From contig JABDPF010000079.1 of assembly GCA_013042915.1 (NCBI GenBank), forward strand, positions 1 to 55,928: a stretch of 55,928 nucleotides of DNA. Reading direction: 5' to 3'. The DNA comes from Lysobacterales bacterium. Its GTDB lineage: Bacteria; Pseudomonadota; Gammaproteobacteria; Xanthomonadales; SZUA-36. This document shows, piece after piece, positions 9,919 to 11,362 of the stretch. A program made the position numbers and the translations under genes. The notes under the pieces were generated by a model, which was not told the DNA's origin, did no database searches, and saw only the letters and a list, made by a program, of their open reading frames with translations. The first letter of the stretch is position 1, and every line of letters starts with the position of its first letter.

Positions 9919-9993
9919 TGGCGCTCCCTAGGGGAATCGAACCCCTGTTTGAGCCTTGAGAGGGCCCCGTCCTGACCGCTAGACGAAGGGAGC
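9919..9993 (-). tRNA. tRNA-Glu (anticodon CTC)
   Basis: 75-base cloverleaf on the minus strand, CCA encoded. The acceptor pairs GCTCCCT with AGGGAGC, with discriminator G. The D-arm starts GTCTAGCGG. The anticodon stem GGGCC/GGCTC closes the loop CTCTCAA with anticodon CTC (reads GAG), and the T-arm is AGGGG-TTCGATT-CCCCT. The flanks closely match E. coli tRNA-Glu apart from the anticodon, so this is the CTC isoacceptor used for the common high-GC codon GAG. It is transcribed away from pcnB. Confidence 0.96.
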
Positions 9994-10093
9994 GTCGTAT
10001 ATTGCCTAATTGACCCGAAATGAGTGCGTTTCGGGACGCACATGTTAAACTACCGCGTCTGCTACATTCAACCTGCAAGAAGCGTATAAAACC

Positions 10094-11362
10094 ATAAACG
10101 ATTACCTCACCATTCCCCGGTCCCAACACGGGATCAGGCTGAAAGAACTCTGTCCGCACGCCTCCGAAGTCGTCAAGGATCTGCAGGACGCCGGCTTCGA
10201 GGCATATATCGTGGGTGGAAGCGTTCGCGATCTGCTGCTGGGCAAGGCGCCCAAGGATTTCGACGTGGCCACCAGCGCCACGCCCGAGGAAGTGCAGGAC
10301 GTCTTTCCGCGCTGCCGCCTGATCGGGCGACGGTTCCGCCTGGCCCACGTACGCAAGGCAGGCCACCTGATCGAAGTCGCCACGTTTCGTGGGCAGGCCA
10401 CGCCCGGAGGCGATGACGACCACGAGTTGGATAACGGCCGCATCCTGCGCGACAACGTGTTCGGCTCGCTTGAAGAGGACGCCCTGCGTCGCGATTTCAC
10501 CATCAATGCGCTGTTCCTGGACCCGGTGAGTGGCGAGATACGCGACTACGTGGGGGGCTACCAGGATCTCGCTGATCGCAGCCTCCGGCTTATCGGTGAC
10601 CCTGAAGTGCGTTACCGCGAGGACCCGGTGCGGTTGCTGCGCGCCGCGCGTTTCGAGGCCAAGCTCGGTGTCGAACCTGAGGAGAAAACGGGAGCAGCGA
10701 TTCCAAAACTGGCCGGCTTGCTGAAAGACGTTCCGCCAGCGCGCCTGTTCGAAGAGGTCAACAAGCTGTTTCTGACGGGTCACGGCATGCGCAGCATGGA
10801 GGCGCTGCAACGGTTTGGGCTCAGCCAGGATCTTTTTCCAGCCCTGCCCAAGGGCTCCGGCAAGGGCAAGGTACGGATCGGGATTTTGCTGCGCAAGACG
10901 CTCGAGAATACTGACAAACGTGTGCGGGAAAGCCTACCTGTGACGCCTGCCTTCCTGTTTGCCGCGCTGCTGTGGGAACCGGTGCGTGACCGGGCCGGGG
11001 AATTGGAGAAATCGGGCGAGTCCCCCTACATGGCCATCATGGCCGCTTCGGAGGAAGCCATCGCCTCACAGGTGAAGCGAACGGCCATTCCGCGCCGTTA
11101 CAGCGCGGTCACCCGCCAGATCTGGCTGATGCAGGCCAGGTTCGGCAAAACGCGCGGTAAACGCTGGAAACGGCTCTTGTACGAGCAACGGTTCCGCGCC
11201 GGGTACGATTTCCTGCTGCTACGCGCCGAGGAAGACCCCGAACTGGAACCTCTCTGCGAATTCTGGACCGAAGCGCAAAAGGGTGTGCAACTTCCGCGCC
11301 CCGGTGATCGGAACCGAAACCGTAACGACCGCCGCCGTCCCCGCAAACGCCGGCGCGCTTGA
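10094..11362 (+). CDS. pcnB: Poly(A) polymerase I (start codon non-canonical)
   Basis: Class II nucleotidyltransferase adding 3' poly(A) tails that target RNA for decay. The catalytic core IVGGSVRDLLLGKAPKDFDV has the GG and D-x-D motifs. The C-terminus is a basic RNA-binding tail (RNRNRNDRRRPRKRRRA) typical of PcnB rather than of CCA-adding enzymes. The segment IPRSQHGIRLKEL before the core matches the conserved IPREQH block of E. coli PcnB, so translation must begin before the first canonical codon in frame, GTG 10211, which lies inside the core. The frame opens after TAA 10046-10048 and offers only CTG 10073, ATA 10094, ATT 10112 and CTG 10139. 10094 is a compromise boundary. E. coli pcnB is known to start at AUU. 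Length about 420 residues. Confidence 0.85.
   Translation: MNDYLTIPRSQHGIRLKELCPHASEVVKDLQDAGFEAYIVGGSVRDLLLGKAPKDFDVATSATPEEVQDVFPRCRLIGRRFRLAHVRKAGHLIEVATFRGQATPGGDDDHELDNGRILRDNVFGSLEEDALRRDFTINALFLDPVSGEIRDYVGGYQDLADRSLRLIGDPEVRYREDPVRLLRAARFEAKLGVEPEEKTGAAIPKLAGLLKDVPPARLFEEVNKLFLTGHGMRSMEALQRFGLSQDLFPALPKGSGKGKVRIGILLRKTLENTDKRVRESLPVTPAFLFAALLWEPVRDRAGELEKSGESPYMAIMAASEEAIASQVKRTAIPRRYSAVTRQIWLMQARFGKTRGKRWKRLLYEQRFRAGYDFLLLRAEEDPELEPLCEFWTEAQKGVQLPRPGDRNRNRNDRRRPRKRRRA

Follow-up and report, generated by a model that had tools for sequence, protein, structure and literature searches.

Where does translation of pcnB, the gene for poly(A) polymerase I (PAP I), an enzyme whose tails mark RNA for degradation, begin when its reading frame holds none of the three canonical start codons ahead of the catalytic core? 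The question is raised by a locus in the window, by which we mean the whole stretch of 55,928 nucleotides of a Lysobacterales bacterium genome that was analysed. A sequence-only reading of this stretch had pointed to the missing start and had proposed that a rare initiation codon, of the kind used by E. coli pcnB, may be conserved in a distant relative. Here we compare the locus with pcnB genes of the same family, of the class and of named relatives, and with the control genes infC, panC and hisS.

The pcnB frame and its missing canonical start

The frame opens after TAA 10046-10048 (TTASATFNLQEAYKTINDYLTIPRSQHGI...) on the forward strand and contains no ATG, GTG or TTG until GTG 10211, which sits within IVGGSVRD in the catalytic core. 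In this the sequence-only reading was accurate, as it was in the positions it gave for the four in-frame candidates CTG 10073, ATA 10094, ATT 10112 (the I of IPRSQHGI) and CTG 10139, and for an out-of-frame ATG at 10042. By its profile score and domain content the gene is that of poly(A) polymerase I: the protein matches the NCBIfam family TIGR01942 at 460.4 bits, above the curated cut-off of 305.65, and carries all three Pfam domains of PcnB, namely the head PolyA_pol (PF01743), PolyA_pol_RNAbd (PF12627) and the arginine-rich C-terminal PolyA_pol_arg_C (PF12626). A second TIGR01942 match in the same genome reaches 91.7 bits and is presumably a tRNA nucleotidyltransferase. The nearest named record to the window gene is from a metagenome-assembled ‘Chromatiales bacterium’ (L204), at 66% identity.

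The PolyA_pol match begins at residue 52 of the open frame, while the first canonical start comes only at residue 55. Such an arrangement is uncommon in the window, where, of 43 long frames, 37 reach a canonical start no more than 27 codons after the upstream stop. When eight frames of the window, including five of the six with late starts, were scanned against Pfam, five had matches, and pcnB was the only one in which the match began before the first canonical start.

The start codon across the family

The family sample comprised 39 genomes including that of the window. Three of them (G002, G015 and G027) gave only a weaker, paralogous match and one locus (L008) is truncated where its contig ends, leaving 35 genes, which were aligned without gaps and numbered in codons from the V of VGG in VGGSVRD. 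At codon -39, which in the window is ATA 10094-10096, 31 of the 35 genes have ATT, ATC or ATA (ATH in DNA, AUH in RNA), in 17 cases ATC, in 13 ATT and in one, the window itself, ATA; ATG, GTG and TTG occur there in none. The sequence-only reading had named relatives with a clear ATG at this place as a finding that would speak against a non-canonical start, and the alignment, with 0/35, bears the non-canonical start out. Among the four exceptions, ATA stands at -38 in L065 and L066, one codon after the usual place; the arrangement of L013 is shifted, with ATG at -40, and L067 is without a clear AUH start, neither of these last two having ATH at or beside the site. No ATG, GTG or TTG occurs upstream of codon -30 in 21 of the 35 members, the window included, for which the upstream frame is complete. 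In L009, L011, L031 and L032 an in-frame stop at -42 or -41 leaves one or two codons before -39, so that hardly any upstream codon is usable as a start in these relatives.

The pattern of substitution places the onset of coding at the same point. In a maximum-likelihood phylogeny of 28 full-length family genes (L008, L013 and six short loci were left out), codons -50 to -41 show 9.9, 9.9 and 10.6 changes per codon at the first, second and third position, which is a non-coding pattern, while codons -38 to -34 (5.6, 5.0 and 9.4) and -33 to -24 (3.3, 1.9 and 10.0) show a coding pattern. Codon -39 itself has no change at its first and second positions and at least nine at its third. Since the coding pattern sets in at about -39, the invariant codon there is best read as the start, and translation of the window gene very probably begins at ATA 10094-10096, giving a coding sequence at 10094-11362 (forward strand) of 422 codons followed by TGA.

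At the third base of codon -39 the 28 genes have C in 15 cases, T in 12, A in one and G in none. The encoded protein cannot explain this avoidance of G, since the initiator tRNA would bring methionine whatever the third base. G is missing from none of the 28 fourfold-degenerate columns with at least seven changes, and from two of 56 such columns upstream, making its absence at -39 unusual; with the base composition of the leader, ten draws without G have a probability of 0.09. Avoidance of AUG is thus supported, rather than proven, by the family data taken by themselves. A fixed AT followed by a base other than G is also seen at the true isoleucine column -33, and such a pattern fits an internal isoleucine codon too.

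That last reading, in which codon -39 would encode an internal isoleucine and each species would begin translation further upstream, draws on the window frame being open for 15 more codons upstream of ATA 10094. It is disfavoured by the missing coding pattern upstream of -39 and by the in-frame stops that lie one or two codons before the site in the four relatives named above, and we regard it as highly improbable. Somewhat less improbable, though still an outside chance, is initiation at one of the other non-canonical codons, CTG 10073, ATT 10112 or CTG 10139, all of which are in frame in a gene with no Shine-Dalgarno sequence before ATA 10094; CTG is a known weak start codon. The DNA around CTG 10073 shows no coding pattern and CTG 10139 falls within a conserved block; neither of these two candidates of the sequence-only reading behaves as a conserved start. 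ATT 10112-10114 follows the onset of the coding pattern (codons -38 to -33), a Shine-Dalgarno duplex energy of -4 or better precedes its column in 0/35 genes, and it reads as the internal isoleucine codon of the IPRSQHGI block; of the four candidates, the family comparison leaves ATA 10094. An assembly or sequencing indel that conceals an in-frame ATG, a possibility the sequence-only reading had raised, might be suspected in a draft of 105 contigs, but 20 further family members from separate assemblies are without a canonical start too, making an error of this kind a negligible prospect.

The leader and the divergent tRNA gene

A Shine-Dalgarno sequence accompanies codon -39 in much of the family. 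Duplex energies of -3.3 or better were found before it in 23 of 35 genes, and of -4 or better in 19 (54%). The latter level was reached by 17% of 1372 internal ATH codons and, for every codon from -48 to -41, by 3-6% of genes; the value is necessarily still high at -38, a shift of only 3 nt. The window is different. The leader right before its start (10072-10093, forward strand) has no Shine-Dalgarno sequence and little structure, with a duplex energy of -0.2, and energies of 0 to -0.2 were obtained in all eight of L003-L007 and L009-L011. Two further genes, L012 and L068, group with these on the tree yet have a Shine-Dalgarno sequence. Since the window and the seven relatives closest to it in this respect (L004-L007 and L009-L011) are without one, the start of the window gene is assigned by homology. 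Initiation in this subclade may be weaker still, doubly weak as it were, because the Shine-Dalgarno sequence is missing along with the canonical codon.

Two ways in which the leader might otherwise act were considered. Region 10056-10140 folds no better than shuffled sequences (z -0.36), which speaks against a structure hiding the start, and a leaderless start from TATAAA 10085-10090 in the subclade without Shine-Dalgarno sequences was set aside because the gap to ATA was judged too short. The members of this subclade (L003-L007 and L009-L011) have in common TTCAACCTG, and mostly GCGTA as well, some 10-30 nt before the AUH codon.

Upstream of pcnB and divergent from it lies a gene for tRNA-Glu (CTC) on the reverse strand (9919-9993), which adjoins pcnB in 27 of 35 family loci. 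Between the two, on the forward strand, a block of TTAAACTA, 14 nt and TTCAA adjoins ATG 10042; read on the reverse strand, this is TTGAA (10071-10067), 14 nt and TAGTTTAA (10052-10045) ahead of the tRNA gene. Both boxes with a spacing of exactly 14 nt are present in 23 of 35 family loci, at distances of 49 to 127 nt from the pcnB start. Because the box spacing is constant and tRNA-Glu lies beside pcnB in so many loci, we take the element (10045-10071, reverse strand) to be, probably, the promoter of tRNA-Glu; a scan for the sigma-70 consensus near the pcnB start and the element called no site, so conservation is what suggests this assignment. On the other strand of the element, the window reads TGTTAAACT within 10042-10071, which resembles an extended -10, and this might act for pcnB as well.

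The sequence-only reading had also suggested that the ORF of 15 codons opened by ATG 10042 (MLNYRVCYIQPARSV, 10042-10089, forward strand, out of frame with pcnB) could act as an upstream peptide. This ATG recurs in 25 of 34 relatives. In 17 of them it opens only MLN or MVN followed by a stop, and in the other eight it opens frames of 5 to 29 residues. These eight longer ORFs share MxNY, and often VQP or IQ, with the window, while their lengths and ends differ, and the MxNY likeness can be put down to the conserved promoter-like DNA beneath it. From this comparison we judge that the ORF is unlikely to be a functional peptide.

Distribution of AUH starts and their likely role

The control genes speak against a loosening of start codons throughout these genomes. 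In the family, panC has a canonical start in 23/23 parsed genes of 24 examined (ATG in 22, GTG only in one), and in 30 genomes of the class hisS has one in 26/27 parsed genes (29 examined, two not parsed), the remaining gene being a wrong match. AUH is thus not a general feature of these genomes. In 14 of the 27 parsed hisS genes (from L370-L398), GTG or TTG without any ATG precedes the conserved core. The third control, infC, starts with AUH as pcnB does: in the family the start is ATC GCN in 20/20 parsed genes (27 matches in 26/30 genomes, 24 examined, four not parsed), and in the window's genome (L289, G000:C7:14169-14672) it is ATC behind GGAGGA, as against ATT in E. coli. Across the 30 class genomes, an ATH codon after a Shine-Dalgarno sequence was counted by eye in 23 of 26 parsed infC genes, the other three not being interpretable (28 loci).

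The AUH start of pcnB extends beyond the family. The order of G257 was sampled with 20 genomes of one family (19 pcnB loci, 18 of them parsed). ATT or ATC at -39 or -38 is preceded there by a Shine-Dalgarno energy of -3.9 or better in 18/18 genes, a canonical start before -30 is absent from 15 of these, and four have a stop at -41 or -42. The order of G201 is that of E. coli, its N termini resembling those of E. coli and Shewanella, and its 30 pcnB genes (29 and that of E. coli K-12) use a different site. Here an ATH codon with an energy of -5.8 or better is found in 18/30 genes; it precedes VGG by 58-69 codons in 17 of these and by 86 in one, though a TTG is a further candidate in L357 and several genes have ATG elsewhere. 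ATG occurs in 12/30 and all three canonical codons are absent in 2/30; in the 18 genes without ATG, a Shine-Dalgarno sequence precedes 11 of 20 ATH codons at this long site, compared with 23 of 241 other codons (p 3e-6). Three genes of the order of G239 are mixed: L449 has ATH and no canonical start, L447 has both ATH and ATG, and L448 has no ATH at the site.

A sample of the class pointed the same way. It held 124 of 209 matching genomes, 30 given and 94 picked down the ranking, and is biased to high scores; several loci at contig ends, with stops in the frame or from near relatives were left out. Before codon -30, 65 of the 124 genes have an ATG, 59 have none, and 14 have none of ATG, GTG and TTG. 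In the 59 ATG-less genes, a Shine-Dalgarno sequence accompanies 19/30 ATH codons at -41 to -37, compared with 32/258 other codons (p 3e-9), and at -70 to -54 the figures are 14/38 and 55/402 (p 7e-4), the p values being approximate since neighbouring codons share sequence, with L118 and L148 belonging to the order of G257 as well. Among named relatives (79 pcnB genes from 80 loci, one being cut), the same comparison gave 5/9 against 12/139 at the short site (p 0.001) and 4/17 against 36/382 at the long one (p 0.08). Five of the 79 are without a canonical start; a Methylomonas is one of them and Sedimenticola selenatireducens another (L211, with AAGGAA ahead of its ATA at -39). These comparisons of sequence establish the place of the start, its AUH class, its conservation, the exclusion of AUG at that codon over the family, and the recurrence of AUH starts elsewhere in the class at two protein sites. 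That a rare start is kept among relatives, as the sequence-only reading had supposed, thus holds over a far wider range than could be seen from the window.

An AUH start is not obligatory for pcnB, since ATG occurs at a plausible position in many relatives. It is found in 48 of the 79 named genes, including those of Pseudomonas, Halomonas and many Betaproteobacteria, so in these the AUH start would seem to have been lost or never to have arisen. In other families of the window's own order, ATG lies upstream of -30 in 23 of 40 genes and all canonical starts are absent in only two. In these other families, pcnB of L069 and L070 (codon -40) and of L210 (codon -58; Xanthomonas by resemblance) may start at a weak TTG, and the N termini of several pcnB genes of the order resemble those of Stenotrophomonas and Xanthomonas.

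The start of E. coli pcnB is given as AUU in three papers (PMC9764084, PMC9410913, PMC4245954), of which PMC9410913 counts two starts of this kind in the E. coli genome, that of pcnB included. In E. coli this AUU lies 64 codons before VGG behind GAGGTG, and the one RefSeq record examined places the start at the AUU position. The likeness drawn by the sequence-only reading therefore stands for the codon class and not for the site, as the AUA of the window is 39 codons before VGG. The gene is the same in both, and so is the AUH class of its initiation codon, against which IF3 discriminates; E. coli has AUU with a Shine-Dalgarno sequence and an N-terminal extension, whereas the window has AUA, no Shine-Dalgarno sequence and no such extension. 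E. coli also has in-frame TTG at -71 and GTG at -53, -36 and -34, so that the absence of all canonical codons in the window is the stricter case. The AUU start of E. coli pcnB was reportedly described by Binns and Masters in 2002. Our search of the literature, mostly outside subscription papers, found no AUH start of pcnB beyond E. coli and Shigella, and earlier notice is possible, for instance in that 2002 paper. The gene and its AUH class were thus known from E. coli, and what appears to be new is the different start site and, in the window, an AUA without a Shine-Dalgarno sequence.

Judged from these comparisons, the window gene would work like the AUH-initiated, IF3-restrained class that contains infC and E. 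coli pcnB. An AUU, AUC or AUA codon at the homologous start, with AUG excluded, is found at family scale (31/35), while the Shine-Dalgarno sequence at start-like spacing, also a feature of the class, is missing from the window and its seven relatives. Like pcnB of the window, infC has an AUH start, one kept across the class sample; unlike it, infC has a strong Shine-Dalgarno sequence and controls itself (PMC9410913), while pcnB would be no more than an external target. In Staphylococcus, AUU or AUA starts of cvfC1, ccpN and citZ lower protein yield, and the AUU of cvfC1 with its strong Shine-Dalgarno sequence is stated to be conserved among staphylococci (PMC13009471). These share the non-canonical AUH codon with the window, and differ in being other genes, with an extended Shine-Dalgarno sequence, in another phylum.

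The reading we favour as a whole, and hold with good confidence, is that conserved AUH initiation, probably discriminated by IF3, keeps PAP I low. The initiator tRNA would read AUA 10094-10096 to give a poly(A) polymerase I of 422 residues, and the family keeps the AUH class and excludes AUG, GUG and UUG at the start codon. From the precedents of infC and pcnB in E. coli, IF3 may reject AUH in the ribosomal P site and so make initiation rare, and rare initiation may in turn keep PAP I low and avoid the unscheduled tailing of RNA. That low PAP I is itself the selected outcome we consider probable, with more reserve. The AUH start could instead be real without being selected for its weakness, tolerated by descent with transcription making up for it. 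The many relatives that use ATG would fit this, as would the modest improbability of ten draws without G given the leader composition. Against it stand the third base of -39, which changes at least nine times in the family and never to G, and the AUH starts of the E. coli order, which lie elsewhere in the protein, so that the class outlives the difference in start site; tolerance of this kind is, in our view, unlikely.

Selection for a weak start has consequences beyond the window. With the same AUH class in distant Gammaproteobacteria, AUG excluded in the family though it is one base away, and the start site differing between lineages, the pattern would point to selection, over long times, for a low level of PAP I. 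Start callers confined to ATG, GTG and TTG would shorten PcnB, here to GTG 10211 within the catalytic core. As one tentative reading, AUH initiation of pcnB may be an old and actively maintained feature of Gammaproteobacteria, with pcnB and infC forming a small regulon set by IF3. The start site differs by about 25 codons between lineages, yet the codon is again AUU, AUC or AUA and not AUG. If the reading were true, the amount of free IF3 relative to 30S ribosomes would set how much poly(A) polymerase is present, tying RNA decay to translation capacity. A connection of this kind, from IF3 and translation capacity to the decay of RNA, becomes testable.
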